39,652 bases of DNA from Parcubacteria group bacterium GW2011_GWA1_47_8 (GTDB taxonomy: Bacteria; Patescibacteriota; Minisyncoccia; Phycocordibacterales; UBA1550): positions 1-39,652 of the forward strand of contig LCOP01000001.1 of the NCBI GenBank assembly GCA_000996605.1, in the 5' to 3' direction. Both the position numbers and the translations under genes were made by a program. Each line of letters starts with the position of its first letter. Positions within the stretch are counted from its first letter, which is position 1. The notes beneath the pieces were generated by a model that saw only the letters and a program-made list of their open reading frames with translations, had not been told where the DNA came from and searched no databases. Shown piece by piece: positions 7,714-38,267 of this stretch.

Positions 7714-8121
7714 CTAACCCTCACTCTGTTTTTTCTGAAGTTTTTCGAGCGCGTGAATCATCGTGGAGATTATCTCTCGCGCGATTTTCATTGCGGTATC
7801 CTCGGTCGCATTCCCCCTGATCCATCGTTCGTATCCCAATAAGACCATCTTGGAACCACGCGACCCGTTCGGCGATGGTACTCTCTGGCACTACAGAGTA
7901 TTTTGCAAGGGCGCAGTCTATCACTCCCCACGTCGGATAGCGATAGGCGGATGTTTCGTCCGTGTTGTGCGGAGGTCGAAGGGGGAGCTCATATTTTATC
8001 TCCTCAAGCAATCTCATGAGGCCGCCGCTGTTGTAACACGTTTTCCCGTCCTTTTGAAAGTGCGAGCTTTTTCCCCGCGTACATGCGCATCGGCACGATA
8101 AAGCGCTTGGAGCGCATTCAT
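7714..8121 (-). pseudogene. Degraded gene of unknown family with at least two frameshifts
   Basis: Minus-strand MNALQALYRADAHVRGEKAR..., then another frame ...HFQKDGKTCYNSGGLMRLLEEIKYELPLRPPHNTDE...WGVIDCALAKYSVVPESTIAERVAWFQDGLIGI..., then a further shift at a G-run into NATEDTAMKIAREIISTMIHALEKLQKKQSEG*. Confidence 0.55.
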
Positions 8122-8286
8122 TAAATATTTACTACTCAGTGATCTGTGTTTTCTTGCTGGGGACATTTCCCACCTTCCTGCTCCAGGGGAGCGTTTGAGC
8201 CTAATGAGATACTACGTCAAGAATCCCGGGAAGTAAATACCTCAAAGCATTTGCGTCGTTCCTCTCTTGGCGATATACTATAGGTA

Positions 8287-16854: not shown

Positions 16855-16887
16855 CATTTTTTTAATACTGAATTATTGTACGAGAGG

Positions 16888-16917
16888 ATCCGCACAGGAG
16901 CGGATTTTGTTGTTTTG
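16888..16917 (+). terminator. Rho-independent terminator after pyrG
   Basis: atccgc-acagga-gcggat followed by tttgttgtttt. Confidence 0.65.
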
Positions 16918-17027
16918 ATTTTTCAATTTTTTAGCCACAAGAAAGAAGAAGATGAAAACCGGAGCATTGGTAGGGCGTACAAATCAAGGAGATAGGATAG
17001 ATCCTCAGTGGTTCATTTCCATGGTCA

Positions 17028-17306
17028 ATGGAAGTTCCAGACTGGATGAAGACCGGAGTCCACCATCGGAGAACATCTAAAGCCCCACTGCACTCGTCGG
17101 GAAGAGCTCACCCCGTTTATTTTTACGGGATTGAGGATGGTCATGGTAAAACTCACTCTATGAAAAGCTCGTTTGATCTTCCTGCGGTATTCTGTGTCGA
17201 GAAGGACTCTCACAAGGATCGGACGTACAAAATCGTAGACGGCACGCCCAAGACAGACCTTCACGACGAGGATGACTACGAGATTATTCCTAATTTTGAA
17301 GACTGA
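17028..17306 (+). CDS. Small hypothetical protein (doubtful)
   Basis: 92 aa ORF with acidic C-terminus ...DGTPKTDLHDEDDYEIIPNFED; precedes a terminator-like hairpin at ~17349. Confidence 0.3.
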   Translation: MEVPDWMKTGVHHRRTSKAPLHSSGRAHPVYFYGIEDGHGKTHSMKSSFDLPAVFCVEKDSHKDRTYKIVDGTPKTDLHDEDDYEIIPNFED

Positions 17307-17348
17307 GTTCCTGACTCAAAAAACTAAAAAGTATTGAAAGAAATTATG

Positions 17349-17393
17349 AACGACTCGCCGGCAAGTATTCGCCCGCGGGTCGTTTTTCTTTTT
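17349..17393 (+). terminator. Rho-independent terminator
   Basis: aacgactcgccgg...cccgcgggtcgtt hairpin followed by tttctttttg. Confidence 0.6.
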
Positions 17394-17484
17394 GGGTAGC
17401 AGTTTCGATTTTCTTGAAAATACCGCCCATTTTTGCTACTATCCGTAAGTGTTCGAAGGCTACCATAGTCTTTGGAGCATACCT

Positions 17485-17555
17485 TGCGAGATCATCTAGC
17501 GGTAGGATGCAGCTCTCTGAAAGCTGTCACCTTGGTTCGAATCCAAGTCTCGCAG
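17485..17555 (+). tRNA. tRNA-Gln (CTG)
   Basis: tgcgaga/tctcgca acceptor, atctagcggtaggat D-arm, agct-ctCTGaa-agct anticodon arm, ttggttcgaatccaa T-arm. Confidence 0.88.
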
Positions 17556-17729
17556 CAGCCATGTGAGATAGACCGAGGCTTACATATCAACATATTTTAG
17601 AGTTCAAAAGTACGCACCCGTCATGGGCTCGAACTTTCCTCAAAAAAGTGAAGAGATGTAAAACTTCGATCGGAATCTCCAATTGGTACTATTCCGTAAA
17701 TTGCATACCTGCTGAGCGCAGTATTCAGA

Positions 17730-17761
17730 GCATAAAAGCACCCAACCGGGTGCTTTTATGC
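17730..17761. terminator. 14-bp perfect hairpin
   Basis: gcataaaagcaccc-aacc-gggtgcttttatgc. Confidence 0.65.
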
Positions 17762-17792
17762 TTATACGGTCAAAAATGATAAAATTGATTTT

Positions 17793-18551
17793 ATGGAATT
17801 CAAACAGTCTACTTTTGGCGACATCATAGAAAGTGAACGAGAAATGTTTTTGACCGCATCAGATCGCTATGGCGACTTTTTTATAAATGCTTCCGAGTTT
17901 AATGTACTACTAAACGAGTTTATTAAATCAGTTGATCCAGATCGATTTATATTTGCTATGTTTCTTTCGCAAATAAGGAAACACGCGACGCTCGCGTTGC
18001 TTTCCGCAGTACGTCTTCATCACGTGCAAACTTCAATGAACCTAAGACAGGTTCTTGAGGCGGGGTCGTGTGCGGCATATGCCATAGCAAATATTGGAAA
18101 AGAAGATTTTGCAGACTTTGATGAGAATGGCTTTTTGGATCCTTCTCAAAAACTCACGAATAAGAGATATAAGTGGCTCGAGGAGAACTTCCCAGCTGGG
18201 TCTACGGCTATCTTGAATATGAAGAAAACCATCAACAATTCTTCGGCACATGCGAATATTGTCTATGCACATAACAATTTTAGATTTGATGAAAAGACTG
18301 GGAAATTTTCTACACCATTTTTCGACATAGAGGACGAGTACTGGGTCAAAACGGATTTGTGGTCTATTGCTAATATAATTATGGGTTTGGTTGATCTGTT
18401 TTATGGAGTAAACAAAGATAGAAATGTTATCAAATTTATAGATGACTTTGTGCCACGATTGAAGGCTTTAGAAAAAGAGAATCATCAACTTAAGGCAATA
18501 ATGATGGGAACAGACCGATTCAAAAAGATTCAAGAAGCAAGTGGTCAGTAG
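17793..18551 (+). CDS. Hypothetical protein, alpha-helical, unknown function
   Basis: 252 aa intact ORF, IRKHATLALLSAVRLHHVQTSMNLRQVLEAGSCAAYAIANIG; well spaced from flanking features. Confidence 0.7.
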   Translation: MEFKQSTFGDIIESEREMFLTASDRYGDFFINASEFNVLLNEFIKSVDPDRFIFAMFLSQIRKHATLALLSAVRLHHVQTSMNLRQVLEAGSCAAYAIANIGKEDFADFDENGFLDPSQKLTNKRYKWLEENFPAGSTAILNMKKTINNSSAHANIVYAHNNFRFDEKTGKFSTPFFDIEDEYWVKTDLWSIANIIMGLVDLFYGVNKDRNVIKFIDDFVPRLKALEKENHQLKAIMMGTDRFKKIQEASGQ

Positions 18552-18555
18552 GCTG

Positions 18556-19905
18556 TTATTTGAGAAGCGATATCTGTTTTTCTTTGAGCACCAACTTGCT
18601 TCGCAGATGACTTAGCAACTCTCGCTTCTCGTATATAGATCGCTTTCGTAGAATGTGCTTCGCGTAGTTTCTGATGTCGATATCCTTGATTTTCACTTTC
18701 TCCATTACTTCTCGTCCAAGCACTGATTCTTGGAACTCATTGTGTTGCTCAATCTCGGCTTTAATCTTGTCTTTCATTCCGATCTCGTCGAGCGATACTA
18801 TGTCAAGGATGTTGGCGAGTTGTTCGACCAGATCCTCCTCTCGAATGTATCCGCATGGGCAGTTCTTGTCCTTGAATTTCGTGCATCCGTAGTACACATA
18901 CCTGTTTGTCGTCCCATCTTTGAGCTTCTTAAATTTCTCATCAGCCGTCACTCCCGATCCGCAGAGTCCGCAGGTAATCATCTTTGTGAAGGCAAACTCC
19001 TTGTCTTGGGCTCTCACTCCATAGTCATTCGTAATCTTGTTCTGTACTTGAGCGTATAAATCTTTGGTTATGATCGGATCATGCTTACCGACGTACCATT
19101 GTCCACCACCTTTCGGGTATTCAAACTCGCCATAGTAAAAAGTGCTTTTTAGAATTATGTAGACATTGCTCAGCGTGAGAGGTTTTCCATGTTTTGTCTT
19201 GAATCGTATATCCTCAGCTAGCCATTTGAATAGTTTTCGACCAGACCATCCATCATACGCAACTTTTTCGAACATTTGTTTGATCACGCCAGCTCGTTGT
19301 TCATCAAGAACCACTTCGCACTTTCTGTTTCTATCTGAATGACTCAGATATCCAGTCGGAGGCACTGATGGCCAGAGTCCCATCTCACACCGCGCCCGAA
19401 GTCCTCGCTTCACATTGACCATCTTGTTGTCATTCTCAAGTTTTGCTTGCGACCCAAGAATCATCAGGAGGAATTTCTCGTTCGGGTTGTTTGTGAACTT
19501 CTGTCCGTAGGTGCGTATCTCGTGGAGCAGTTTCTGATCCATCAGGTCTACCACCGATCCAAGGTCTCCGGCGTTTCTCGACAGGCGATCGGGTGCCCAT
19601 GTCAGAATGCCATTGAATTTACCTTGCCTGATTTCGTTGATTAGTTCGTTGTATACTGGCCTCTGCCCAACCTCTTTGGAAGAGTGCGACTCTCGCTTGA
19701 TCTCGACTATTTCAAGCCCCTCGCGCTCGGCGAGACTAATCATCTCCCTTACCTGCGACTCTATTGATAATGCTTGCTTGTCCTCTTGCTCCGTTGATTT
19801 ACGGGCATACAGACAGTACTTAATCGTTGGTGGGGTTACCTCTGGTGCCATCCCCATCGCTGGCTTTTGTGTTGTTTTTTCCATACAACACAAGGAATGA
19901 CGCAT
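18556..19905 (-). CDS. Large serine recombinase (resolvase + recombinase + zinc-ribbon domains)
   Basis: YCLYARKSTEQEDKQALSIESQ catalytic Ser region, LTWAPDRLSRNAGDL, KRGLRARCEMGLWPSVPPTGY, zinc ribbon CGLCGSG...YYGCTKFKDKNCPCG, C-terminal coiled coil. Internal start at ~19881 is possible. Confidence 0.92.
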   Translation of the reverse strand: MRHSLCCMEKTTQKPAMGMAPEVTPPTIKYCLYARKSTEQEDKQALSIESQVREMISLAEREGLEIVEIKRESHSSKEVGQRPVYNELINEIRQGKFNGILTWAPDRLSRNAGDLGSVVDLMDQKLLHEIRTYGQKFTNNPNEKFLLMILGSQAKLENDNKMVNVKRGLRARCEMGLWPSVPPTGYLSHSDRNRKCEVVLDEQRAGVIKQMFEKVAYDGWSGRKLFKWLAEDIRFKTKHGKPLTLSNVYIILKSTFYYGEFEYPKGGGQWYVGKHDPIITKDLYAQVQNKITNDYGVRAQDKEFAFTKMITCGLCGSGVTADEKFKKLKDGTTNRYVYYGCTKFKDKNCPCGYIREEDLVEQLANILDIVSLDEIGMKDKIKAEIEQHNEFQESVLGREVMEKVKIKDIDIRNYAKHILRKRSIYEKRELLSHLRSKLVLKEKQISLLK

Positions 19906-19951: not shown

Positions 19952-21490
19952 TTATGAGTCAGAATATGGTCTATTGCTCGCTGGAAACATACCCCTTTTC
20001 CTGAGAGGGGTCGGATTGTCTAACCATGCTGGTCTAGGAAAAGTACCAGCAGTTCCTCCTGACCTATTATTTTCAAGTGTCTTGACTACGAGATATGCAA
20101 AAGCGTCTGCAAGGTCATCATGCCTTTCTTTTCCAAACCCTAACAACTGCTGAATGAGTTCTTCGCATCCTGTGTGCGGGAAGAACACACGAGTGTCCTT
20201 CATCATGGGAGTTGCAAGACGCAAACGCGCCGCTTTATCGCTCCCTTTGGTCGGAGCGGCTTCGACATCATACTTGCTCTGTTCCAGAAGCTGGACGAGT
20301 GCTTTTTGATACGCCACATCCTCTATATAGAACTTCACACGCGAACACTTCTGCAGGTGGAGTGCATCCAAAGATTTGATGCGATCGACTTGAGCTGGAA
20401 ATGTGAGACGTTCATTTATGGGATGAGGCTGGATGTAAATTTTGAGGTTCTTTCCGTACCCATAGATATATCCAATGACCATGGCGGTATAGTCAGCGGA
20501 CTGTTTCTCACTAATCGCAAGATCAACCCCGATAGCTATCGTCTGGGGTTTACCACTCGGCAGGTCATCATAGCGATGTATCCATTCAGGGTGAACAACT
20601 CGCTCTGCGGTGGAAATGATCTTGAGTTCATATTCCCGATACCACGCGATATCATCCATAGTCTTTTCTTTTTCTTCCCTGATACTTTCTGGTGTCGGAT
20701 ATTTCCCCGGCCACAGAGGGTTTCCGTGTTCATCAATGATCGGATACTCACGATACGTTCCGTGCATTCGCTCCATGTCGCCATTTTCGATTTTCATCTG
20801 AAGGCGCTTCAATACCGAATCTTCGTGCAATAGGTTTCCTACTGCGATAATGCGAGTTCGCTTGTCTCCAGCTGGGATAATTTCACTTGTAAGCCAGTTA
20901 AAAACCTTGTCCCTGCCTTCTCGAGTTTTAACCGAGTTCGTATCTTCAATGTCGTCGAGAATAATGAGATCGGGACGATGCTCATCATGACGCATACCGC
21001 GAATGCTCTGCTCAGTTGAGCTGATCATGATCTTCACGTTCAGTCTTTTGATAATGAGAGCGGTCGCATTACCCAGGCTATTCTTTTCTTCTTCAAACGG
21101 CCCGAGGTCTTTCCGCAAAAGCTCGTTATTGAGGAGTTGATTTTTGATGTTTGAGAGATACTGTCGAGACTTCTGCTCGGTCTGTCCGCAGATCACTATA
21201 AACTTCCGCTGTTGCACGCCTAAAATCGACCACAGAACATACGCGGTAGTGATGATGGTCGATTTGGCAGATCCTCGGAACGCGACGATAACCGCGAGCT
21301 TGATCGCATCGTCTTCAAGAATGCGGAATATCTCCTCATGGAAAGGAGCTGTCTCGTATTCCATGTATCGATGGAAATAGATGGGAAAGAAATGCTCAAA
21401 ACTCTTTTGAACGACGTTCTTTCGCAGTACTTTATCAATGAGAATCTTCTCGAATAGATCCTCGACTCTATTTTTCTTTTTTCTTGCCAT
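19952..21490 (-). CDS. Phage terminase large subunit
   Basis: Walker A-like AFRGSAKST, Walker B DLIILDDIED, nuclease AIGVDLAISEKQSADYTAMVIG and ERHDDLADAFAYLV. Confidence 0.9.
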   Translation of the reverse strand: MARKKKNRVEDLFEKILIDKVLRKNVVQKSFEHFFPIYFHRYMEYETAPFHEEIFRILEDDAIKLAVIVAFRGSAKSTIITTAYVLWSILGVQQRKFIVICGQTEQKSRQYLSNIKNQLLNNELLRKDLGPFEEEKNSLGNATALIIKRLNVKIMISSTEQSIRGMRHDEHRPDLIILDDIEDTNSVKTREGRDKVFNWLTSEIIPAGDKRTRIIAVGNLLHEDSVLKRLQMKIENGDMERMHGTYREYPIIDEHGNPLWPGKYPTPESIREEKEKTMDDIAWYREYELKIISTAERVVHPEWIHRYDDLPSGKPQTIAIGVDLAISEKQSADYTAMVIGYIYGYGKNLKIYIQPHPINERLTFPAQVDRIKSLDALHLQKCSRVKFYIEDVAYQKALVQLLEQSKYDVEAAPTKGSDKAARLRLATPMMKDTRVFFPHTGCEELIQQLLGFGKERHDDLADAFAYLVVKTLENNRSGGTAGTFPRPAWLDNPTPLRKRGMFPASNRPYSDS

Positions 21491-21893
21491 GGTTTCGAAG
21501 GGATGAAAGCTTCAATGCTTCCCGTATCAGTTTCTTTTGCTCCTTAGTGAGTGGTTCGTCTTTGCTTGATACTGAACCAGACAGCTCAAGCTTGTTGCTG
21601 TACCGAGAATTGTGAGTTGAGAGATACAATCGGATTGCCTCAATCTTTTTGTCTCCGATAAGAGAGAAGAGTTGGTTCTCGGCAATGTCAGACATAAACG
21701 TTCTGCCCTCAACAAGAGCTTCGTCGACCTTTTTTTCGAACTTTCCGCTTGCTTTGATCCATCGGTATACAGTTGCTCTGGCAATGCCAACTTTTTGGCA
21801 GGATGTCTCGATAGTTGGGGTACGCTTCAACTGTTCAAGGAATGCCTTTTTGAGTTTGTTCTGACGAGCTTTGATGGTGTCGCGCCTGCTCAT
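21468..21893 (-). CDS. Terminase small subunit-like / HTH protein
   Basis: TIETSCQKVGIARATVYRWIKASGKFEKKVDEALVEGRTFMSDIAENQLFSLI; overlaps the terminase large subunit start. Confidence 0.8.
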   Translation of the reverse strand: MSRRDTIKARQNKLKKAFLEQLKRTPTIETSCQKVGIARATVYRWIKASGKFEKKVDEALVEGRTFMSDIAENQLFSLIGDKKIEAIRLYLSTHNSRYSNKLELSGSVSSKDEPLTKEQKKLIREALKLSSLRNHGKKKEK

Positions 21894-25370: not shown

Positions 25371-28316
25371 ATGAAGATTACCGATCAACACGCTAAATAT
25401 TTTGCATACGAGCTGACGAAGCGTTGTTCTTCCAATAGTTTGGAGAAACTTTCCTCTACACTTTCAAACGCTCAAGTTGATCTGAACCCTCATCAGATTG
25501 AGGCGGCACTTTTTGCTTTCAGGTCACCGCTCTCAAAAGGTGCGATTTTAGCCGACGAGGTTGGACTTGGTAAAACTATTGAGGCAGGACTCGTTCTCTC
25601 TCAAAAATGGGCTGAGAGAAAGAGAAACATTCTTCTAATCGTTCCTTCAAGTTTACGAAAACAATGGAACGACGAGCTATCGGAGAAATTCTTTCTACCT
25701 TCAATAATTCTTGAAGCAAGATCTTTTAATCAATACATAAAAGATGGAAATCTGAATCCATTCAATCAGGAGGATAAAATCATCATCTGCTCATACCACT
25801 TTGCTCGTTCCAAGTCTCCATATATCAAACAAACAAAATGGGATTTGGCAGTAATAGATGAGGCACACCGCCTCCGTAATGTATATAAAACAAGCAATAA
25901 GATTGCGCGTGAAATTAAAGATGCGCTGACCGAAGTCCCCAAGATTCTACTTACCGCAACCCCACTTCAAAACTCCCTACTCGAACTCTACGGACTGGTG
26001 AGTATCATTGATGATCACGTGTTTGGTGATCTAAAAAGCTTTAAAGCAAATTATGCACGGGTTTCCCGCGAGCAAGATATTTACGAAAATGAGCTCGGTC
26101 TTGTTGAGCCAAAACAAGAAATGTTTGTCGATTTACGCAACCGCTTAAAGCCAGTCTGTATTCGTACACTTCGTCGCCAGGTACTGGAATATATCAACTA
26201 TACGGAACGAAAACCTATCACGCAGGATTACGTTCCTACCGAACAGGAAGTTGAGCTTTATGACGGAATGTCTGAGTATCTTCAGCGAACAAAACTATAC
26301 GCACTTCCTTTTAGTCAGCGCCAACTCATGACTCTTATTTTGCGAAAGCTTTTGGCATCGTCTTCTTTCGCTATCGCCAGCACTTTGGATAAATTGGTAT
26401 ATAAACTCGAACAGCTAATCGTAGATACAAAAGCAAAAATACCTACTCAAGATGGTGGCATCGCCGGTATCGAACAAAACTTTGAAGCTTTTGAGGAAAT
26501 GTCCGACGAGTGGATTGATGACGAGGAGGGTGAAGATGATAAAGAAGAGAAAGAACAGAAGGCTCTTACAGAGAAAGATATTGTGCTCATGGAGCAGGAA
26601 AAAGCCGATCTAGAAAGATTCCGTAATCTAGCACAGAAAATATATACGAACTCCAAAGGGGACGCTTTGCTTACTGCCCTCAAAAAAGGTTTTGAAATGA
26701 CCGCCGAGCTAGGTGCTAAAAAGAAAGCAATCATTTTTACTGAGTCCACTATTACACAACGATACCTAGCAGAAACTCTTCTGGGTAATAATGGTTACAA
26801 AGACAAAATCGTTTTGTTTAATGGTTCAAATAACGACGATAAATCAAAAGAGATATACAAAAACTGGCTCGCAAAAAATAAGGACACTGACAAAATAACA
26901 GGATCAAAGACAGCCGACACCCGAGCGGCACTCATCGAATATTTCAAAGACGAAGCAGAAATCATGATTGCGACCGAAGCGGGAGCTGAGGGCGTGAATC
27001 TGCAATTCTGTTCATTGGTTATTAACTACGACTTACCGTGGAATCCTCAACGAATTGAACAGCGTATAGGTCGTTGCCATCGTTACGGACAGAAGCATGA
27101 TGTTGTCGTAATCAACTTCGTAAACAGAAAGAACGCCGCAGACCAACGTGTCTATGAACTGTTAGATCAGAAGTTTAAATTGTTTAAGGGTGTATTCGGT
27201 GCAAGTGACGAAGTGCTAGGTTCTATTGAATCAGGTGTTGATTTTGAAAAGCGTATTGCGGGAATCTATCAGACATGCCGTACAGCCGATGATATCAATA
27301 CCGCCTTCGATAAGCTTCAGGAAGAGATGGACGAAAGTATACAGAGTAACTTATCTGATACACGTCAAAAACTTCTGGAAAACTTTGATGCTGAAGTTCA
27401 CGAAAAGCTTAAACTCAACCAAAGAGAGAGTCAGTCATACCTTGATACCTATGAACGCTGGCTGTGGGACGTTACTCGTTACTACTTGGGGGATAATGCT
27501 GACTTTGCCGAGCATGAGTATTCTTTTTCTCTCAAAGTAAATCCTTTTCAAAATGAGGACATAGATCCAGGTCCATACAAGATCGGTAAAAATGTGGAAG
27601 ACGCGCACGTCTATCGCCCCGGGCACTCCTTGGCACAAAGAATATTGAATGAGGTTAAAAACAAACAGATTGAGTCTGCTGAGATTGTTTTTGATTATTC
27701 AAATCACTCGTCTATTATTTCCGTACTAGAACCACTTGTCGGTAAACATGGAACCTTAAAAGTTTCTAACTACACTGTTGAGGCTTTTGAAAAGGAAGAT
27801 GCGGTTGTCGTGTCTGCGCTCGATAATAATGGAGAGCCTATTGAAAGAGACATAATTAAGAAACTATTCTCGCTTTCTGCTCAATCAGTTACACCTAAAG
27901 CGCTGTCACCTGAAGAGTCCACGAAGCTAGATGAGCTTGAGCAACAAACTATCTCTATAATTTCTGGGCAGATCGCAGAAAGAAACAGTGAGTTTTTTGA
28001 TGACGAAGTAGATAAACTCGATAACTGGTCAGATGATGTAAAGAAAGGTCTCGAGCTTGATCTAAGGAAGCTTGATATTGATATCAAGACAGCCAAAACA
28101 AATGCCAAAAAAATTGTTAATCTTGAGGAGAAGCTCAAGGCTCAGCGGGAAATCAAGGATTCCGAGAAAAAACGTAATGAGATGCGTAGAAAGTTATATG
28201 AGGCACAGGACGAGGTAGAGATTAAAAAAGAAAAGTTACTGGAAGGAATAGAAGCTCAGCTAAAGCAGAAGTCACAGATAGAAACATTATTTACAATCAG
28301 CTGGAAAATCATTTAA
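25371..28316 (+). CDS. SNF2/HepA(RapA)-like helicase
   Basis: GAILADEVGLGKTIEAGLVL, LAVIDEAHRLRN, LLTATPLQN, ATEAGAEGVNLQFCSLVINYDLPWNPQRIEQRIGRCHRYGQ. Confidence 0.95.
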   Translation: MKITDQHAKYFAYELTKRCSSNSLEKLSSTLSNAQVDLNPHQIEAALFAFRSPLSKGAILADEVGLGKTIEAGLVLSQKWAERKRNILLIVPSSLRKQWNDELSEKFFLPSIILEARSFNQYIKDGNLNPFNQEDKIIICSYHFARSKSPYIKQTKWDLAVIDEAHRLRNVYKTSNKIAREIKDALTEVPKILLTATPLQNSLLELYGLVSIIDDHVFGDLKSFKANYARVSREQDIYENELGLVEPKQEMFVDLRNRLKPVCIRTLRRQVLEYINYTERKPITQDYVPTEQEVELYDGMSEYLQRTKLYALPFSQRQLMTLILRKLLASSSFAIASTLDKLVYKLEQLIVDTKAKIPTQDGGIAGIEQNFEAFEEMSDEWIDDEEGEDDKEEKEQKALTEKDIVLMEQEKADLERFRNLAQKIYTNSKGDALLTALKKGFEMTAELGAKKKAIIFTESTITQRYLAETLLGNNGYKDKIVLFNGSNNDDKSKEIYKNWLAKNKDTDKITGSKTADTRAALIEYFKDEAEIMIATEAGAEGVNLQFCSLVINYDLPWNPQRIEQRIGRCHRYGQKHDVVVINFVNRKNAADQRVYELLDQKFKLFKGVFGASDEVLGSIESGVDFEKRIAGIYQTCRTADDINTAFDKLQEEMDESIQSNLSDTRQKLLENFDAEVHEKLKLNQRESQSYLDTYERWLWDVTRYYLGDNADFAEHEYSFSLKVNPFQNEDIDPGPYKIGKNVEDAHVYRPGHSLAQRILNEVKNKQIESAEIVFDYSNHSSIISVLEPLVGKHGTLKVSNYTVEAFEKEDAVVVSALDNNGEPIERDIIKKLFSLSAQSVTPKALSPEESTKLDELEQQTISIISGQIAERNSEFFDDEVDKLDNWSDDVKKGLELDLRKLDIDIKTAKTNAKKIVNLEEKLKAQREIKDSEKKRNEMRRKLYEAQDEVEIKKEKLLEGIEAQLKQKSQIETLFTISWKII

Positions 28317-28321
28317 CAATT

Positions 28322-29983
28322 ATGAGCAATAACAAACAAAAACTAGAGCTTACATGGATCGGGAAAAACAATCCCGAGTATGATATTGCCAATATTGAAC
28401 CGCGCATTTTAGAAGAGCGGACTGATTTATCGTATGGCGACAAAGATACCGAGAATATGATTATTCACGGTGATAACCTCCTGGCTCTTAAAGCTCTTCT
28501 ACCAGAATACGAAGGTAAGGTGAAATGTATTTATATTGATCCACCATACAATACTGGTAATGCTTTTGAGCATTACGACGACAGTGTTGAGCATTCCACA
28601 TGGCTCTCACTTATGAAGCCGAGGCTTGAATTGCTAAGGGCCCTTTTGGGTGACGATGGAAGTATTTGGATTTCAATAGATGAAAAGGAAGCCCATTACC
28701 TAAAAGTGTTGTGCGATGAAGTTTTTGGAAGAAATAATTTTATTATTCAAACAACAATTAAAAGGGGTTCGGCAACAGGTCATAAAGCAATTAACCCCAC
28801 CCCTGTTCAGGTTTGCGACCTAATGTTGTGTTATGCAAAAAGCAAAGAAAATTGGATTTATAAGCCAGTTTATCAAGAGCGAGATTATGACAAAGCATAC
28901 TCTCAGTATATTGAAAACTATGAAGAGGGTTTTGAAAACTGGAAATTTGTTTCACTTAAGGAAATTCTTAAAAAAGATAATCTTAAAATAGAGACGGCAT
29001 TAAAAAACTTTCCCGAGCGCATTATAAGATTTGCGCAACCAGATTATAAGGGAGTTGGGCAAGAAACAAGGGATTATATCGATCTTTCTAAAAAAGAACC
29101 GAGTAAGATACACAAACAATCCAGAGAGGGCTACCCAGATATTTATTTGATAAATGGAAACAGAATTTTGTTTTACAAAGACAAGATGAAAGAAATAAAT
29201 GGGTCATTTGTGACGGCAGAACTTGTAACTAATCTTTGGACTGATATGAACTATCAAGGAATTGCAAGCGAAGGAGACGTGGTATTCCTAAAAAGTAAAA
29301 AACCAGAGCTTCAAATAAAAAGGATTTTAGAAATGTCTACTCAATCAGGAGATACCGTTCTCGACTCATTCCTTGGTTCTGGAACAACTTCAGCCGCCGC
29401 CCACAAAATGAATAGAAAATATATAGGTATTGAAATGGGAGAACATGCTTACACACATGTACACAAAAGGATGAAAAATGTTGTAGACGGCATTGATCAA
29501 AGTGGAATAAGCAAAGCTATGAAATGGCAAGGTGGGGGTGGATTTAAGTTTTATGAACTTGCGCCAAGTTTCGTAGTGATTGATGAATTTGGTAATCCGG
29601 TGATTGATAGCTACTACAATGACACTAAGCTCATCCGCGCGATGTGTAAGCTAACCAACTACACGTTTGCCCCAAGCCCTGCTGTCTACTGGAAGCACGG
29701 TAAAGGCCAAGGCAACAATAGTATTTATGTAACAACCCAGATGCTTTCTGTGGCAATGGTTCAACAGATTGTGAGTCATCTTGGTGCAAACGAGACACTC
29801 CTCATCTGTCCAAAGAAATTTGAACCTGGATGTGAGAAGGTAGATAACCGTATCACTATCAAAAAGATACCGCAGTCAATTTTGAAGGCGTGCCAATTTG
29901 GAAAGAAAGAATACCTGCTTCCTATCAAAGAACGAGCGATGGAAGAAGTTGACGAAGACGAAGTTGATTCTGACGAAAACTAA
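28322..29983 (+). CDS. Type III-like restriction-modification DNA methyltransferase (Mod)
   Basis: NMIIHGDNLLALKALLPEYEGKVKCIYIDPPYNTGNAFEHYDDSVEHSTWLSLMKPRLELLRALL, SGDTVLDSFLGSGTTSAAAHKMNRKYIGIEMG. Confidence 0.95.
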   Translation: MSNNKQKLELTWIGKNNPEYDIANIEPRILEERTDLSYGDKDTENMIIHGDNLLALKALLPEYEGKVKCIYIDPPYNTGNAFEHYDDSVEHSTWLSLMKPRLELLRALLGDDGSIWISIDEKEAHYLKVLCDEVFGRNNFIIQTTIKRGSATGHKAINPTPVQVCDLMLCYAKSKENWIYKPVYQERDYDKAYSQYIENYEEGFENWKFVSLKEILKKDNLKIETALKNFPERIIRFAQPDYKGVGQETRDYIDLSKKEPSKIHKQSREGYPDIYLINGNRILFYKDKMKEINGSFVTAELVTNLWTDMNYQGIASEGDVVFLKSKKPELQIKRILEMSTQSGDTVLDSFLGSGTTSAAAHKMNRKYIGIEMGEHAYTHVHKRMKNVVDGIDQSGISKAMKWQGGGGFKFYELAPSFVVIDEFGNPVIDSYYNDTKLIRAMCKLTNYTFAPSPAVYWKHGKGQGNNSIYVTTQMLSVAMVQQIVSHLGANETLLICPKKFEPGCEKVDNRITIKKIPQSILKACQFGKKEYLLPIKERAMEEVDEDEVDSDEN

Positions 29984-29984
29984 T

Positions 29985-32795
29985 ATGTCTACTTTTATGA
30001 ACCGAGAACAAGCCCTGCAATACATAACAAACGCAATGAGTTTGCGAGATCCTCAAGAAAAAAGCTTGGTGTTTTTTGCTGACTACCTAGAAGGAGATGC
30101 TGGCAAAAAGGTATTGGCGAGAATGAAGAAAGAAAATCGTGGAAGCGTCGAGGATATTGAGGCTTCGACCAAAGAGTACTCTCAAGCAATACCCGACCTG
30201 AGACAGTTTCAATCTTTCGAACGAACCTTCCCTGCATATACCTTTGCACTGGCTACTGGTGTGGGCAAAACTCGTCTTATGGGTGCCTTTGTAGCGTATC
30301 TCTACCTTGTTTACGGTATACAGCATTTTATGATCGTTGCCCCGGGCAATACCATCTATCGCAAGTTGGTAGATGATTTCAGCAAAGCCAACAATCCCAA
30401 GTATGTTTTTCGAGGAATTGAAGAGCTTACGACTTCGAATGTAAAAGTTATCACCAAGGACAACTATGCCCAAAGCCAGATGGCGCAACTTTTTGCAAAC
30501 AAGATAGAAATTAACATTTTCAATATTCAGCAATTTGCGCAAAAGGATATAGAGAAAGAAAAAGGTATTACCAAGTTTAGTGAAATGCTCGGGGAATCAT
30601 ATTTTGAATATCTTAGTTCTCTCGATGATCTTGTTGTATTGATGGATGAATCGCACCACTACCATGCCGATGCGGCAATGGGTTCGCTTGACCGTATAAA
30701 CCCTTTGTTTGGACTTGAATTTACTGCTACGCCCTATCTTGCTCCGACGAGTACAAAGAAAGGCACGGGGCTTATTCTCAAGAAAAATATCTTCTACGCA
30801 TATAATCTTGGAAATGCTATTCGGGACGGGTATGTAAAAGATCCGTGGGTAGGCACAGAAGCCGATGTTGATTTTGGCCAGTGGGATGCGGAGTCCATAG
30901 AAACCGATGCTCGTAAACTACAGCTCGCCGCCTTTTTTCATGAACGCACGAAAGTTGCTTTGAAAGAATACGCTATTGAAAACAATAGACATGAAGTAAA
31001 GCCCGTCATGCTTGTTGTGGCAAAGGATACTGCCCACGCGAGTGCATTGCGTATGTTGATTGATAGCGAACAGTTTAGAGGTGGTGCGTATAAGGGCAAG
31101 GTAATCGAAGTTCATACAAAAACAAAAGGCGACGAAGCGGATGAGACAATTGAAAAGCTTATATCACTTGAACACCCAGATAACATCGTGGAAATTGTCA
31201 TCCATGTAAATATGCTCAAGGAGGGGTGGGATGTTGCTAATATTTATACGATTGCACCAATAAGGTCTTCGGTGGCACAAATTTTAACTGAGCAAACAAT
31301 TGGTCGCGGACTTCGCCTGCCCTACGGAGAAAAGACGGGAAATAAAAATGTTGATCGTGTAATGATTGTTGCCCATGACAATTACGCAAAAGTGATTGAG
31401 GAGGCACAACACTCCAAGCTTATTCAGCCGTCAAACATTGAAAGCATTTCGACTGATGACACAAAGGTGGTAAGAGAAGTTATTGAAGTGCAATCTGTTT
31501 TTGTCACTAATATTCAAGAGCAAATCAAAGCGAGCGGAAGTCTCATGCAGGAAATTGAAGCGCAGGCAACAAAAGCAGTTAATGCTGTCATGTCGGAGGA
31601 CACTCCAGAAGATGTGAAGATAGCGACAATACAAAACAAAGTGCGGGAGATAGTCGAGATAACAGCGAAAAATGAAGCGGTAAAAATGGGTTCTGTCGAG
31701 GTTGGAAGTACCGCATACGAAGAAGGGTCTTTGTTTAATATTTTGAGTGAACCTGCAAAGAAAGAGCTTGAAGATATTGGGCGTGTTTCGAGACAAACCA
31801 TCGAGGTTCGTAACATTCCTATTCCTAGGTTAATGCTTACGCCTCATTACGGTGAACTCACGATTGATAATTTTGACTTAGATATAACAAAATTAAGTAA
31901 ATTTGCTACGGACGCCTCGATTCTTGAACAGGCGTTACAAGGAAAGGAAGAGAAGGACTTATTCGGCGTAGCTTATCAAGGTCATCGCGAGACTGAGCTC
32001 ACTCGTGTTTCAAGTCTCGGTGAAGGCCGTGCGCAAAGCCCAGAAAATACTATCATCTCAGCTCTCCTTGATTTTCCACTTGTTGATTACGATGAGCAGA
32101 GAGAATTATTGCTCAAACTTTCAAATCAGGCGGTTGCATACTACAAGTCATTTGTTAGCGATACAAGCGCACTCAAAATGATGGTGGAAAATAATTTTCG
32201 CCAGATTGCCAAAGAGATATACGATCAGATATTAACCCACAAAGAGTTTAAGTCTGAGAGTTATTTGGAGTCTAGTATTCGTGAGCCAAAACCGTACTTG
32301 GAGCAATACAATATTTCACGAAGCTTCGATGAGAAGCCTGTTACTTTGGAATCTCAACTTGATCGTTTCTCAAGAGATAAAATCTATACAGGATTTAGCA
32401 AAGCGTGTCACTCAATGTACAGATTCGATTCTTCGGATGAAGTACGGATGGCGTACCTTCTTGATAAAGAACCGTCGGTAGAAGATTGGCTTCGCCCCGC
32501 TCCAAATCAATTTGAAGGACTCTACTGGCGTGATGCGGAGGGAAACTCACAACACCGTTATGAGCCAGATTTCGTAGTGGAGTTCAAGAATGAAATTGTG
32601 ATGATTGAAGTTAAGCCAGGTGTAGAAGCAAAAAACCTAGACGTACAAGAGAAAAAGAAAACCGCTGATAAGTATTGCGAGCTTGTTTCAAAGAATGTTG
32701 GCAAATACGGGATCACCAAGCCGTGGCGGTATGTCATTACCCCTACGGAAAAAATCACTGTTAGTTCTACAGTGGAAGGGTTATTAAAGCTATGA
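29985..32795 (+). CDS. Type III-like restriction endonuclease (Res): SF2 helicase + C-terminal PD-(D/E)XK
   Basis: ALATGVGKTRLMGAFVAYL, LMDESHHYHA, TIGRGLRLPYG, C-terminal YEPDFVVEFKNEIVMIEVKPG. ATG at 29985 preferred, 2 nt after the Mod stop. Confidence 0.93.
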   Translation: MSTFMNREQALQYITNAMSLRDPQEKSLVFFADYLEGDAGKKVLARMKKENRGSVEDIEASTKEYSQAIPDLRQFQSFERTFPAYTFALATGVGKTRLMGAFVAYLYLVYGIQHFMIVAPGNTIYRKLVDDFSKANNPKYVFRGIEELTTSNVKVITKDNYAQSQMAQLFANKIEINIFNIQQFAQKDIEKEKGITKFSEMLGESYFEYLSSLDDLVVLMDESHHYHADAAMGSLDRINPLFGLEFTATPYLAPTSTKKGTGLILKKNIFYAYNLGNAIRDGYVKDPWVGTEADVDFGQWDAESIETDARKLQLAAFFHERTKVALKEYAIENNRHEVKPVMLVVAKDTAHASALRMLIDSEQFRGGAYKGKVIEVHTKTKGDEADETIEKLISLEHPDNIVEIVIHVNMLKEGWDVANIYTIAPIRSSVAQILTEQTIGRGLRLPYGEKTGNKNVDRVMIVAHDNYAKVIEEAQHSKLIQPSNIESISTDDTKVVREVIEVQSVFVTNIQEQIKASGSLMQEIEAQATKAVNAVMSEDTPEDVKIATIQNKVREIVEITAKNEAVKMGSVEVGSTAYEEGSLFNILSEPAKKELEDIGRVSRQTIEVRNIPIPRLMLTPHYGELTIDNFDLDITKLSKFATDASILEQALQGKEEKDLFGVAYQGHRETELTRVSSLGEGRAQSPENTIISALLDFPLVDYDEQRELLLKLSNQAVAYYKSFVSDTSALKMMVENNFRQIAKEIYDQILTHKEFKSESYLESSIREPKPYLEQYNISRSFDEKPVTLESQLDRFSRDKIYTGFSKACHSMYRFDSSDEVRMAYLLDKEPSVEDWLRPAPNQFEGLYWRDAEGNSQHRYEPDFVVEFKNEIVMIEVKPGVEAKNLDVQEKKKTADKYCELVSKNVGKYGITKPWRYVITPTEKITVSSTVEGLLKL

Positions 32796-32826
32796 TCAAA
32801 AATATACTCACAACATTGGGCACCTA

Positions 32827-35358
32827 ATGGTTATGAATTACTTAAAATTAAAAATTAAGAACTATTTATATCGCTCCAAATCTTTTTGGACTACAAAGAA
32901 ATGGTTTGAGGATAAACCGATATTTTCATTGTGGAAAGGAGTGTATCGTAGTCGCTATGAGTTCAATAGGTTTAGGGATTATAAAGATATTCTTACACCC
33001 ACTCTCGTCTCTTTTGGAACAGCGGTTTTGTATTCTGTATTTATAATTTTTATTCTAGAGCTTGGTAACCATTATTACCCGACGGGTTTAAAATACGATA
33101 AAGAAGCAGTTGACACCTTTCTGTCTGTTATAGCGAGTATTTCCGGTGTATTTCTGGGTTTGTATTTTACTGCCATATCTGGCATTGCTAGTAGCTACCT
33201 TTTGCGCGCACCTCAAAATGTTAAACAATTTTTTCTTACAGAACCCAGAGGACAACAGTATGTTAGAACTATAGAAATCACAGGAATCGTTAGTGTTTTT
33301 TATATTGTTTTTAAGTCATTCGGATATCAGATTCATCCAATAGGTTTGGCATTTCTATCCCTACTTGTAGCATACATAATTATTAGGTTTTGGCAGGTTG
33401 GAACAAATGTTTTTTATTCACTGGAGCCACAATTTGCGTTGACCTGGATTACCAGAGACATATTTTTTTCTACAAAAAGTATTGCCCCACCAGGTTTACA
33501 GTGGAATAAGTCAGCAATACAAAATCACCACAGGGTAATGGTCTCAGGAAAGTTTGCTTTGATAAAAAACTTGATTCATTTCGGCAAGTCAGAGATGAGG
33601 GTATCTGATGAGCAGTTGGTGGCAGCTATGGGATATATCGGTGGCCTATTGGTTTCTTATGCAGATTTCAAAAAAAAGATTCCCACTAGTAGCTACTGGT
33701 TTGAAACAAAAAATGAATTTCAAGACTGGACGCTCGCGGGATCATCGCAAATTGCTATTGCGTTGAGTACAGGAACCCCCCTTCAACCTAAAAATGTTCG
33801 GAATTACACGTGGTATGAACAAGAAGCTTTAAATATTGCTGTTCAAATTTTTGAATCCTTCTCAGATGCTAGAAAAATACTCTCAAGTGCTCGAGGTCTT
33901 GATATATTAGTTGAAGTTGTGGAGGTTTATGCACAAGATTTTGATGTAAAAGGAGCAGAACTATTGTTTAAGAAAATTAAGGTTGTTAGCGACCATCTCT
34001 ACACAATACAGGCAAATAATACTCAACAGCAGTTGTTTAAGGAGCAACTATCGTTTGTAGATGCCCAAGGAAGACTTGCGATATCAGCAATGTTGGGATT
34101 GATGAAGTATCTCGACAGTCACTCTTGTGAAGACATAGCAAAACGTATCGCTGGGATTGACTGGTTAGCTGATAAGAACATCTATCTCACAGGTCTACCT
34201 GGCGCAATGCTACCCCGACTCGAGTCCTTGTCTAATGATTTACGAAATGAGAAGGAGATTGAAGGAAACTTGATTTCTGCAGATTGGTATATAAAAACGT
34301 ATTGCTTTCAGCAGTATCTTTTCTCCTTGCAGGGTTACTTCAACTTTATAAAATCACTCCACTCCGACCATTTTCAATCAAGCCTCGATAGATTGTTATC
34401 CGCGCAGCAATTACCGCTTGCGGTGCATCTGATTCAAAGGTGGAAAGAATTTTCGGCAAAATATCGAAGAATGATATTTGACCTGAAAAAACACATAGAT
34501 TGTTCTAATTCACATCGTTTATTAGGAGACCTTCCTTGGATTGAGTTTGATTTTGAAAAGGAGAAGCAGGTTGCTTTGGATCGAGAGAAAGATGTAACGG
34601 ATAAAATGATTCAGCTCTTACCACAATTGAAAACTCTCGCTACTGGTGACGATCTGCCTGACTACTTTGGCCAAGCTCTCACAGAGGGCGTACAGGCTTG
34701 TTATGAAGCTTGTGAGGATAACGACCATGAGAGATTGGGAAAGATCCTTCCTGCAGTTTTTGATGCATCTTTAGTAGCTTACGACAGATTGCGTGAAAAG
34801 GTGAAAGATTGGAGCCAAATTGATAGTAAATTGATATTTTCAAGTGAACCGTTGGAAAATCTCTTTGAAATCAGCGGATACGCAAAACTCTATTCTGAGC
34901 TATATCAAAACCCCGAACTTTGGAGCGTGGTCGAGCGTTTATGGAATATATATTTTCAAGCTGTTGATGCCAAACAAGTGATTCAATTTATCGCTACAAT
35001 GAGTAGCTATCGAGATGGTGTCTTCCAGATAATGCCACAAGCTATGTTAAGAAGTAACTGGCAGATTGGTTTTGAACATAAATTGAGAGAACGTGGCATA
35101 CCGGTGTTTCCAGATAGTGGGAGTTATGATTCCGTAAATGGACGCAGACAGCCAACTCACACAAGTCCTGTAATACGAGTTCTTGAGCGGTCAGGTGGTT
35201 TAAGATTGATGGCTTCGGCAAGAGACATTTTCTTTGCTACGTATTTATCAAGTCTCCCTGCTGCGGAAGGAATAGAGCTTCCCGACAGACACAACTTCAA
35301 GGAATCAATTCAAGAGGAATCGCAAAATCCTAACCAAGAAATAGATGAAGATGAATAA
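32827..35358 (+). CDS. Large protein with N-terminal 4-TM region and ~640-aa soluble domain, unknown function
   Basis: TM-like segments LTPTLVSFGTAVLYSVFIIFILEL, TFLSVIASISGVFLGLYFTAISGI, TIEITGIVSVFYIVFKSFGY, IGLAFLSLLVAYIIIRFW; remainder helical. Confidence 0.85.
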   Translation: MVMNYLKLKIKNYLYRSKSFWTTKKWFEDKPIFSLWKGVYRSRYEFNRFRDYKDILTPTLVSFGTAVLYSVFIIFILELGNHYYPTGLKYDKEAVDTFLSVIASISGVFLGLYFTAISGIASSYLLRAPQNVKQFFLTEPRGQQYVRTIEITGIVSVFYIVFKSFGYQIHPIGLAFLSLLVAYIIIRFWQVGTNVFYSLEPQFALTWITRDIFFSTKSIAPPGLQWNKSAIQNHHRVMVSGKFALIKNLIHFGKSEMRVSDEQLVAAMGYIGGLLVSYADFKKKIPTSSYWFETKNEFQDWTLAGSSQIAIALSTGTPLQPKNVRNYTWYEQEALNIAVQIFESFSDARKILSSARGLDILVEVVEVYAQDFDVKGAELLFKKIKVVSDHLYTIQANNTQQQLFKEQLSFVDAQGRLAISAMLGLMKYLDSHSCEDIAKRIAGIDWLADKNIYLTGLPGAMLPRLESLSNDLRNEKEIEGNLISADWYIKTYCFQQYLFSLQGYFNFIKSLHSDHFQSSLDRLLSAQQLPLAVHLIQRWKEFSAKYRRMIFDLKKHIDCSNSHRLLGDLPWIEFDFEKEKQVALDREKDVTDKMIQLLPQLKTLATGDDLPDYFGQALTEGVQACYEACEDNDHERLGKILPAVFDASLVAYDRLREKVKDWSQIDSKLIFSSEPLENLFEISGYAKLYSELYQNPELWSVVERLWNIYFQAVDAKQVIQFIATMSSYRDGVFQIMPQAMLRSNWQIGFEHKLRERGIPVFPDSGSYDSVNGRRQPTHTSPVIRVLERSGGLRLMASARDIFFATYLSSLPAAEGIELPDRHNFKESIQEESQNPNQEIDEDE

Positions 35359-36391
35359 CTTTATTAAAAAATCCAAAGAATTTATAAAGTCTTTCTTAAA
35401 AGACCCACTCTTTTTGAATAGATGGGAAGAGTCATGGTACTCTCGTCGCCGTGATGATAATCAGTTGTCAGTAAGAATTTCTGGACGTCATAGAAGAAAA
35501 GCCTATCCATATTACGGAGATTCCCATCTGTTTGTTGAAGATATGTACACGGGAATTATGCCCTTTATGATTTACAAGGGGGAAAGAGAAAAATATCCAG
35601 CAAGAATTGAACCAGCTACTACAACTCAAAAACAGAGGATAATTGCTAGCGGTATTTCCCAGCGAGATCACACATTCTTTTTAGAAGACGCAATATGTGA
35701 ATTTGTTAGAACAACTGCCCACATTCTTTTTTCTGATGGCGTAGCGTTTTACGAGATTGTCTACAAGAAAAATGAGGTGGGCGAAATTGAGAGTTTTGAA
35801 TTTGAGTTATTACAACCTTTTTACCTGTTCCGTTTTTGGAAAAACTATTACCAAGTTGTACCGTGGTGGGAAGCAAAAGAATCTCGCATACGTGCCCAGA
35901 TAGTAAAAATACCCGCTGAAAAGATTCTGCGCATTGATTTTCCAAAGCGATACGGAGGAAAACGAAAGATCTACTCTTTGCTAAAGCGTTTGTATCAATT
36001 AAGTAAAGAATTGATACCTGAATTTCAAATGCAGGCTATGGGTAAGAATGAGAATATCGGCTTTAATCTAGATGAGTTTAGTAAGGCAAAATATTTGGAG
36101 ATTGCAAAACTTACCACCCAGTATGGGTGGAACCAGCGTCAGCGTTCAGATAAATATATTACTGAGTATTATTCAATGATCCGTTTTCTACGTGAAAAAA
36201 AACTAGAAGCAACTATTAGAACCCATATTATTGCATCTCTAAACGAAGTTCTTAATCGTCCTCCTTTAAATCTCAACGCTACGATAATTATTGAGAACTT
36301 GTTTTCTGTTGAAAAGGTTGGGGAGCAAGAAAGGCTCTTAGAAAAAGGAAATGTTAAGTTTATGGATCTTTTTAATTCACTCAAAATTTAA
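35345..36391 (+). CDS. Unknown protein, possibly portal-like; overlaps the 3' end of the preceding membrane-protein gene
   Basis: ATG inside the end of the upstream gene (35345 vs 35358); FVRTTAHILFSDGVAFYEIVYKKNEVGEIESFEFELLQPFYLFRF...KIPAEKILRIDFPK. Confidence 0.75.
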   Translation: MKMNNFIKKSKEFIKSFLKDPLFLNRWEESWYSRRRDDNQLSVRISGRHRRKAYPYYGDSHLFVEDMYTGIMPFMIYKGEREKYPARIEPATTTQKQRIIASGISQRDHTFFLEDAICEFVRTTAHILFSDGVAFYEIVYKKNEVGEIESFEFELLQPFYLFRFWKNYYQVVPWWEAKESRIRAQIVKIPAEKILRIDFPKRYGGKRKIYSLLKRLYQLSKELIPEFQMQAMGKNENIGFNLDEFSKAKYLEIAKLTTQYGWNQRQRSDKYITEYYSMIRFLREKKLEATIRTHIIASLNEVLNRPPLNLNATIIIENLFSVEKVGEQERLLEKGNVKFMDLFNSLKI

Positions 36392-36414
36392 TCGTTACTA
36401 ATATCAAACCATAT

Positions 36415-37119
36415 ATGCGTAACGAAAAAATCAACTCAAAGATTGTCACTCTCTGGAATAAGTATTTTCAGAATGACCAAGATGTATACGCTCCGCTTTT
36501 CTACGATGAATTTAAGAAGGGCGGTTTGCTGTTTGTCGGCATGAATCCGTCTTTCAGTGCAAGAGGATTTAAGACGATTCTTCAGAATACAGAATATAAA
36601 GACATGGATCCCGATACATTCTTCAAATGGAGCAACATATCTTCCAATCCTAAGTTGATAGATGACTGCATCAAAGTAGAAAACTACGCATACCAAAACT
36701 ACTCGCTGTACTTCGGTCGTCCTGTTGAAATAGCCAAGAATGTTGGCCTCGATTGGCAACACATTGATCTCTTTCTCTACAAAGAAACGTCGCAGACTGA
36801 TTTCATGAATCGTGTCCGAAGCAAGGGTGTTTTGAACGAGTTTGGTATGGATCAGATAAAATTGTTTGAGGACATTTTAGTTCAAATTGAACCTCGCTGT
36901 GTCGTGGTCAGCAATGCGACTGGCTCGGAAATACTACGCGAATATATAAAGAGTGATCTTTCGTGGGATGCAGAGCGGGGCTTTCACTGGTTCACAAGAG
37001 GAGGCAAGAAAATTCCAATGTTCTTCTCCTCAATGCTGAGCGGACAACGTGCCCTTGATCGCTGGTCATACGAGCGACTTGTGTGGCACATAGGGCAAGC
37101 GGTGAATATCTCAAAATAG
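36415..37119 (+). CDS. Uracil-DNA glycosylase superfamily-like protein
   Basis: GGLLFVGMNPSFSARG (UDG motif 1-like, G-x-N-P), C-terminal MFFSSMLSGQRALDRWSYERLVWHIGQ. Confidence 0.6.
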   Translation: MRNEKINSKIVTLWNKYFQNDQDVYAPLFYDEFKKGGLLFVGMNPSFSARGFKTILQNTEYKDMDPDTFFKWSNISSNPKLIDDCIKVENYAYQNYSLYFGRPVEIAKNVGLDWQHIDLFLYKETSQTDFMNRVRSKGVLNEFGMDQIKLFEDILVQIEPRCVVVSNATGSEILREYIKSDLSWDAERGFHWFTRGGKKIPMFFSSMLSGQRALDRWSYERLVWHIGQAVNISK

Positions 37120-37121
37120 AT

Positions 37122-38267
37122 ATGGAAGATACCCTAGATACAGCAAAAAATGAGAAGCTCGCGGCGATATTTTCTAAATTAGAAAAACCCACTACTTCAG
37201 ATTGGATGTTGGGTCATGAGTATTCATTTACCAAAGTAAGTATTTCGACTTCAGTACCGGAGGCATATTTACTGAAGCACGTTTTCGCTGATAGTTTGGG
37301 TTTCCCCTGTGACTACATGCCGATGGAAAAAGTTTTGTGGGAAATCTGCTTCATAATAAATGGAATTCTATGTAAGGTTGTAAGTCATAAATTCGGGCAT
37401 CGCTTATACATAGGTTCTGCTGATGAGGATACCGTTTCAAAGACCACAGACTATCTTGTTGGAATATTTAATTCTGCGACAGCCTTCCTCTCTACGCTTC
37501 TTAAGGATTACGCAGACATAGAAATAAAGAAAGGCAATGTCAGTATTGATAACCAGTATTCTAGCTTACGAGCTACATATGACTATTTCAGGGATGAAGC
37601 AAAGAAAAAACGAGCTGAGAAAGTGGAGATTACTCCGAAGGAATCGGCCAATCAATTACTACCAGGATGGAACGCTGAGATGGAAAAATTGAGACATGCC
37701 TCCTATCTTGACCAAGGAGCATACTTTGCCTTTTTCGGATTACTCGAACACGTACTAGTTCTCTTTTTGGCATTTAATGATTTTGATCCAAAAACAGAGC
37801 ATCTAAAAGAATTCATTTTTCGTCCCTGGGCTGACAAGTATAAACGGGCATTTAATTTAAGATCTGACAAAGAGGCAGATCGTCACTACCAGTTACTTAT
37901 TGCTATTTCAAGAAAATATAGGAATCCTCAGGCACACGGGATGTTTAATAAAGAAGGCAGAAGCATGGCTTTCTTTTTAGAGGGTACAGGTTTATTGTCG
38001 GCACATTTTTCAAATGAGGAGAGTAATATTCCTCAATGGGTTCGTGGTGATGGAAAGGAGCTTGAGGAGTTGGGTGATTTTCTTTTATGGCTTGAAGGTC
38101 ATACTACATACAAAGTTCCAATGCAGATTATTAAGGGAGGTCTCAGGATACATTTTTCAGAAGAAGGTCGGCAAATATACAAAGATTTAATGAACGACGG
38201 CGATGCATCAGAATTTGTGGAGCATGAAAATCTGATAGCTGATGATCATGGGAATATGGATTGGTGA
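37122..38267 (+). CDS. HEPN-like protein (RNPQAH, Rx4H motif)
   Basis: YQLLIAISRKYRNPQAHGMFNKEGRSMAF; ATG at 37122 is 2 nt after the upstream stop. Confidence 0.55.
   Translation: MEDTLDTAKNEKLAAIFSKLEKPTTSDWMLGHEYSFTKVSISTSVPEAYLLKHVFADSLGFPCDYMPMEKVLWEICFIINGILCKVVSHKFGHRLYIGSADEDTVSKTTDYLVGIFNSATAFLSTLLKDYADIEIKKGNVSIDNQYSSLRATYDYFRDEAKKKRAEKVEITPKESANQLLPGWNAEMEKLRHASYLDQGAYFAFFGLLEHVLVLFLAFNDFDPKTEHLKEFIFRPWADKYKRAFNLRSDKEADRHYQLLIAISRKYRNPQAHGMFNKEGRSMAFFLEGTGLLSAHFSNEESNIPQWVRGDGKELEELGDFLLWLEGHTTYKVPMQIIKGGLRIHFSEEGRQIYKDLMNDGDASEFVEHENLIADDHGNMDW

Follow-up and report, generated by a model that had tools for sequence, protein, structure and literature searches.

The 39,652-nt contig LCOP01000001.1 of Parcubacteria group bacterium GW2011_GWA1_47_8, analysed here over its full length (the window) and part of an 840-kb genome, carries two overlapping genes, one for a membrane protein of 843 aa and one for a 348-aa protein with the predicted fold of tailed-phage portals, which recur together on the mobile elements of several phyla of bacteria. 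In the explanation that we favour, and to which we give about an even chance, the pair is an undescribed two-gene mobile cassette that combines a domesticated portal-fold protein with a membrane partner, most likely as a protection of its carrier from tailed phages or from competing mobile elements.

Both genes lie on the forward strand and begin with ATG; the 843-aa gene occupies positions 32827..35358 and the 348-aa gene positions 35345..36391, with an overlap of 14 nt, as the first-pass annotation had read them. The assignment of the first draws on its ORF, hydrophobicity, an AlphaFold2 model and conservation in 15 loci, and that of the second on its ORF, an AlphaFold2 model and Foldseek comparisons with PDB and BFVD. 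The two ORFs are real genes and not chance ones, since both are conserved across genomes in these 15 loci (identities of the two genes to homologues elsewhere include 52/53%, 36/36% and 22/25%). They belong to a run of seven co-directional genes (25371-38267; gaps of 5, 1, 31, -14, 23 and -37 nt), which encode, in this order, a DrmD-like SNF2 helicase, a type III Mod, a type III Res, the 843-aa and 348-aa proteins, and proteins of 234 and 394 aa. The helicase gene (25371..28316, +; PADLOC DrmD, 713 bits), the first of the run and a neighbour of the pair only, scores 712 bits against NCBIfam DISARM_DrmD_b, which is under the cut-off of 950. The neighbouring type III restriction-modification (R-M) genes encode the methyltransferase Mod (28322..29983, +; PADLOC MTase_III, 2e-149) and the restriction subunit Res (29985..32795, +; REase_III, 4e-130), the latter likely starting at the ATG at 29985 rather than at a TTG at 29898. 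Together these three genes (25371-32795, +) form an apparent single operon in which other DISARM genes were not recognised, and the combination is unusual in its own right. On the 3' side of the pair (36415..38267, +), the genes for the 234-aa (36415-37119) and 394-aa proteins (37083-38267) overlap each other; neither has a family match above cut-offs, although an N-terminal motif like that of uracil-DNA glycosylases can be made out by eye in the 234-aa protein, and neither gene was found in the other pair loci examined.

The larger protein had been described as having four hydrophobic segments within its first ~200 residues, followed by a helical domain of ~640 residues, and this outline is borne out. 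In a Kyte-Doolittle scan, hydrophobicity peaks four times, at residues 59, 99, 148 and 168, and the remaining ~640 residues lack an equally strong peak. In the AlphaFold2 model, built with nine family members (mean pLDDT 78.5), long helices are predicted at residues 48-83, 92-127, 140-164 and 171-198, the rest being almost all-helical. The four transmembrane helices are assigned to residues ~59-198 (33001..33420, +). Within this region lies a conserved GVFLGLYFTA motif (residues 107-116), and the second-helix motif GVFxGLY, along with many tryptophans, is nearly invariant in the family.

The first reading had recognised no family for the 843-aa protein, which holds for the second half of the chain and not for the first: residues ~5-388 (32839..33990, +) align with DUF2254 (PF10011) in hhalign with a probability of 94 and an E-value of 1.3e-7 over 314 columns, against ~4e-3 for reversed controls. 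A direct Pfam scan returns DUF2254 as a weak match in three of 11 family members, with a best E-value of 0.031, below the Pfam cut-off. By profile comparison, the 843-aa protein is therefore described as a distant DUF2254 relative with an extra alpha-solenoid: its four N-terminal transmembrane helices and the region that follows align with PF10011, whereas the additional helical solenoid of ~450 residues and the portal-like partner gene present in every intact locus set it apart. For the C-terminal solenoid there is no confident PDB relative, the best being a designed toroid (E 2.2e-3), and weak matches of the RAI16, SRP72 and toroid-like kind were treated as generic alpha-repeat similarity. 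A literature search on the function of DUF2254 found no paper.

The nature of the 348-aa partner became apparent from its predicted structure, a feature that had gone unnoticed in the first-pass annotation. By sequence, neither protein was identified in Pfam, NCBIfam, PHROGs, PADLOC or PDB sequences, alignments included; for the 348-aa protein this comprises the portal models PF04860, the PHROG portal families and NCBIfam, and its family members likewise gave no portal match when scanned with Pfam and PHROGs. A template-free AlphaFold2 model of the 348-aa protein from nine family members (pLDDT 77, pTM 0.79), by contrast with these sequence searches, was matched by Foldseek to portals or portal-containing structures in all of its top 50 PDB hits (best E 9.6e-5, HK97). 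These include HK97, HFTV1, phage 812, P23-45, BB1, lambda, G20c and a GTA particle, at probabilities of 0.9-1.0, and in BFVD the best matches (best E 2.7e-6) are mostly COG4695/portal. The TM-scores of the model against portals lie at 0.25-0.48, i.e. below 0.5, with high rmsd, as would fit a chain of several domains that can pivot against one another; the term portal is therefore to be taken as a fold assignment and not as proof of a common function. With this qualification, the 348-aa protein is predicted to have the fold of tailed-phage portals, and the likely role of the pair changes accordingly from what had been envisaged.

At the level of sequence the relation to portals appears weak and is not significant alone. 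In comparisons by hhalign the score improved with the depth of the portal alignment, from an E-value of 0.11 to 0.012 and 0.005 for 10, 21 and 38 phage portals, the best corresponding to a probability of 7%, while reversed and unrelated controls gave 0.1-0.7; global hhalign of the family against portals was uninformative. The stretch that aligns, residues 112-201 (35678..35947, +), falls at the expected place on the wing region of HK97-family portals, and the predicted likeness in fold to portals of the HK97 gp3, G20c, HFTV1 and SPP1 gp6 type extends over the whole 348-aa chain. The differences from these portals are consistent. Identity is ~10%, and family members measure 278-367 aa, whereas portals typically exceed 400 aa; the family is strongly basic (pI 9.1-10.0), in contrast to the neutral or acidic phage portals (pI 4.8-7.6 in ten sequences); capsid, protease and tail genes are absent around the 348-aa gene; and the family always has its membrane-protein partner.

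The distribution of the two genes speaks for a functional unit, a constant two-gene cassette. A neighbourhood scan recovered the intact pair in 15 distinct loci with constant gene order and strand and a spacing of -59 to +95 nt; three further loci (L005, L022 and L024, the last a weak match) end at contig edges within the pair. The independent occurrence of homologues, which would have spoken against the coupling proposed at first reading, was not seen: there is no split pair and no intact locus with one gene alone, and in the sampled Patescibacterial genomes an intact membrane gene implies the portal-like gene and vice versa. The two proteins have also diverged together, their pairwise distances being correlated with r = 0.967 across 14 loci in a mirror-tree comparison, a value reached by none of 10,000 permutations. 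Shared descent of the carriers adds to this coefficient, yet these carriers come from several phyla and belong to different mobile elements.

The pair is mobile and patchy accessory DNA. Hosts comprise Patescibacteria, Bacillota (including Paenibacillus plasmids), Pseudomonadota and Rhodothermales, and prevalence is ~1% of the genomes sampled (Patescibacteria, two samples: 5/380 and 3/297; other phyla, three samples: 1/198, 3/250 and 2/299; the counts include the starting genome). In Paenibacillus lautus the pair (WP_119851504.1 and WP_119851503.1) resides on a plasmid, a near-identical copy of which occurs in Paenibacillus sp. Cedars; in Burkholderia glumae it is found on a conjugative plasmid amid IS elements and adjoins a VapC gene; and in another pseudomonadotal locus (L057) it lies in a Tn7-like element of the TnsABC/TniQ-like kind, the TnsB-like and TnsC-like genes being confirmed by Pfam and TnsA and TniQ by eye. 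In Patescibacteria, the carriers include recombinase-bearing elements, some of them with serine recombinases. A current phage origin of the pair was rejected because relatives were found neither among 50,697 phage records nor in three scans of the IMG/VR viral collection.

The nearest relatives of the window in our searches are Patescibacteria, e.g. Nomurabacteria, with the exception of L014, a contig of 8103 bp binned as Gammaproteobacteria, whose pair is 68-76% identical to that of the window, which points either to misbinning or to a transfer in the recent past; directly upstream there is an HNH endonuclease gene. In a Rhodothermales locus (L021), a related stretch occurs twice, at 8112-8534 and 16165-16368, flanking the pair, and these copies are possibly insertion scars.

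The neighbours of the pair repeatedly include defence genes of unrelated systems. Besides the type III R-M and DrmD-like genes directly upstream of it in the window, type I R-M genes are found directly upstream in two loci, at 9 bp (L022) and 274 bp (L041); AbiEi/AbiEii lie near the pair in L018; and L010 carries a Pycsar cyclase with its effector (PycC/PycTM) and SIR2, beside which stands a DUF2726 nuclease-like gene. Upstream of its type I R-M genes, L041 carries a further gene, of 609 aa (16156-17985, -), with no PADLOC match. Several other loci have no defence gene within reach and show solely recombinases or unrelated genes, and neither pair protein matches a PADLOC-DB defence model. The association is thus recurrent, but it is a raw neighbour listing, and defence genes are common on mobile elements by default. 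Of the initial suggestion of a membrane-anchored module appended to an R-M operon, the defence-linked membrane module is supported, while the R-M attachment applies to the window, L022 and L041 and fails in most loci. A constant association with type III R-M or DISARM was not observed, type III occurring in the window only, and the view that the pair belongs invariably to an R-M operon was rejected. With no R-M neighbour in most loci, it is an independent cassette; R-M genes, present in three loci beside AbiE, Pycsar and recombinases in others, are therefore an occasional neighbour and not a component of the system.

A more prosaic reading would give the pair a housekeeping or other accessory role, e.g. 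in membrane stress or transport, and regard the portal-like fold as a remote structural coincidence, or as repurposed in a way that has nothing to do with phages. DUF2254 relatives are indeed widespread membrane proteins without a known role, and the relation to portals is weak by sequence; the patchy occurrence at ~1%, the placement on mobile elements, the defence neighbours, and top 50 PDB fold matches that consist exclusively of portals or portal-containing structures make this reading rather unlikely.

The genes to the left of the run in the window bear on two further readings. Between 18556 and 23900 (-) lie genes, packaging genes among them, of a putative integrative element surrounding the pair: a large serine recombinase (18556..19905, -; Resolvase 2e-19, Recombinase 7e-13, phrog_95 integrase 2e-66), a terminase large subunit, TerL (19952..21490, -; phrog_38, 5e-80), a gene like that of terminase small subunits (21468..21893, -; phrog_24579 TerS, 9e-8), a DNA methylase and a ParB-like methylase. 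No capsid, protease or tail gene was recognised in this element. A tRNA-Gln gene (17485-17556) is located near its left side, and the ParB-methylase genes are separated from the gene of the DrmD-like helicase by a LOOT RNA (RF03000; 24320-24449, +; 76.9 bits, E 6e-13), with which two probably spurious ORFs of 123 and 261 aa overlap. At the place of TerL, the Nomurabacteria element L010 has a gene (17114-18613, -) for a 499-aa protein without known family.

Portals are DNA channels, and the pair could accordingly be a DNA-conducting or gating device of mobile elements, in which a portal ring on the membrane protein would move or hold element DNA, powered by a terminase in some cases. The TerL and TerS genes of the window element, a weak Terminase_2 match in L011 and the recombinases near the pair in many loci fit such a device, and because some Patescibacterial elements carry terminase-like genes, the pair may serve to transfer the element that carries it. 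There is, however, no terminase near the pair in most loci (the plasmids, the Tn7-like element, L018, L021, L023, L041, L012 and L020), for which reason a model of DNA transfer that needs a nearby terminase was down-weighted, and the Burkholderia carrier has a conjugation system of its own (MPF_F). We regard a DNA device as improbable.

It is also quite unlikely that the pair serves PICI-like phage satellites of Patescibacteria in interference or packaging, its portal-like protein joining helper-phage capsids in favour of the satellite: the serine recombinase, TerL/TerS and DNA methylases of the window element, in which no capsid or tail gene was recognised, and small HTH genes that L010 and L015 carry at a comparable position (weak matches) agree with it, but plasmids and a Tn7-like transposon carry the pair without a constant satellite set of TerS, integrase and replication genes, satellites are not known to have such a membrane partner or so strict a pairing, and no phage-like record carries the pair. 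PICI and SaPI satellites that use capsid homologues (Ccm) nevertheless offer a parallel, in that a mobile element encodes a homologue of a phage structural protein and possibly poisons assembly with it; the pair differs from them in having a portal fold instead of a capsid protein, in its membrane partner and in its wide occurrence outside satellites.

In phages, the portal nucleates the assembly of the procapsid and is the docking site for scaffold, terminase and tail proteins. The favoured reading of the pair as a protective cassette can be cast on this basis into a mechanism. The 348-aa protein would presumably oligomerise as portals do, and the 843-aa DUF2254-like protein would dock it at the inner membrane through its cytoplasmic alpha-solenoid. 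During infection, the portal mimic would engage head-assembly partners of the phage (portal, scaffold or terminase), which may assemble at the inner membrane; in SPP1, the portal nucleates procapsids there and nucleation depends on the portal (PMC13212656). Such an engagement could stall packaging at the membrane, switch the four-helix protein so that it perturbs the membrane (abortive infection), or do both. In other words, the docked mimic would either trap and misdirect head assembly, or be turned by the contact into a trigger for its membrane partner; the evidence fits trapping and membrane damage alike. The more specific proposal, that bacteria have domesticated a phage portal and fixed it at the inner membrane by means of a dedicated DUF2254-like partner, there to trap or sense, as part of their immunity, the head assembly of invading tailed phages, is advanced tentatively, at somewhat less than even chance.

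Links between defence and phage portals have precedents: the trigger of SpbK is YonE, the portal of SP-beta, and certain Avs proteins are likewise portal sensors (PMC12847820). The likeness of SpbK-YonE and Avs4 to the present case lies in this tie to portals. There, a TIR or STAND protein recognises a portal that the phage itself encodes, whereas the pair locus itself encodes the portal-like protein, and no TIR or STAND enzyme domain was found in it. Portals are known as parts of virions and as triggers of immunity, but the literature and databases searched describe no counterpart of a free-standing bacterial gene for a portal-fold protein that is constantly accompanied by a DUF2254-like membrane protein.

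The cultured carriers, such as that of the Paenibacillus lautus plasmid, make the pair directly testable, and it would provide a first functional handle on membrane proteins of the DUF2254 type. If the pair moves DNA, it would represent a new DNA-transfer device. If it protects cells, the DNA gateway of phages would have been turned against phages, in a kind of defence that equips the defender with a structural mimic of this gateway.
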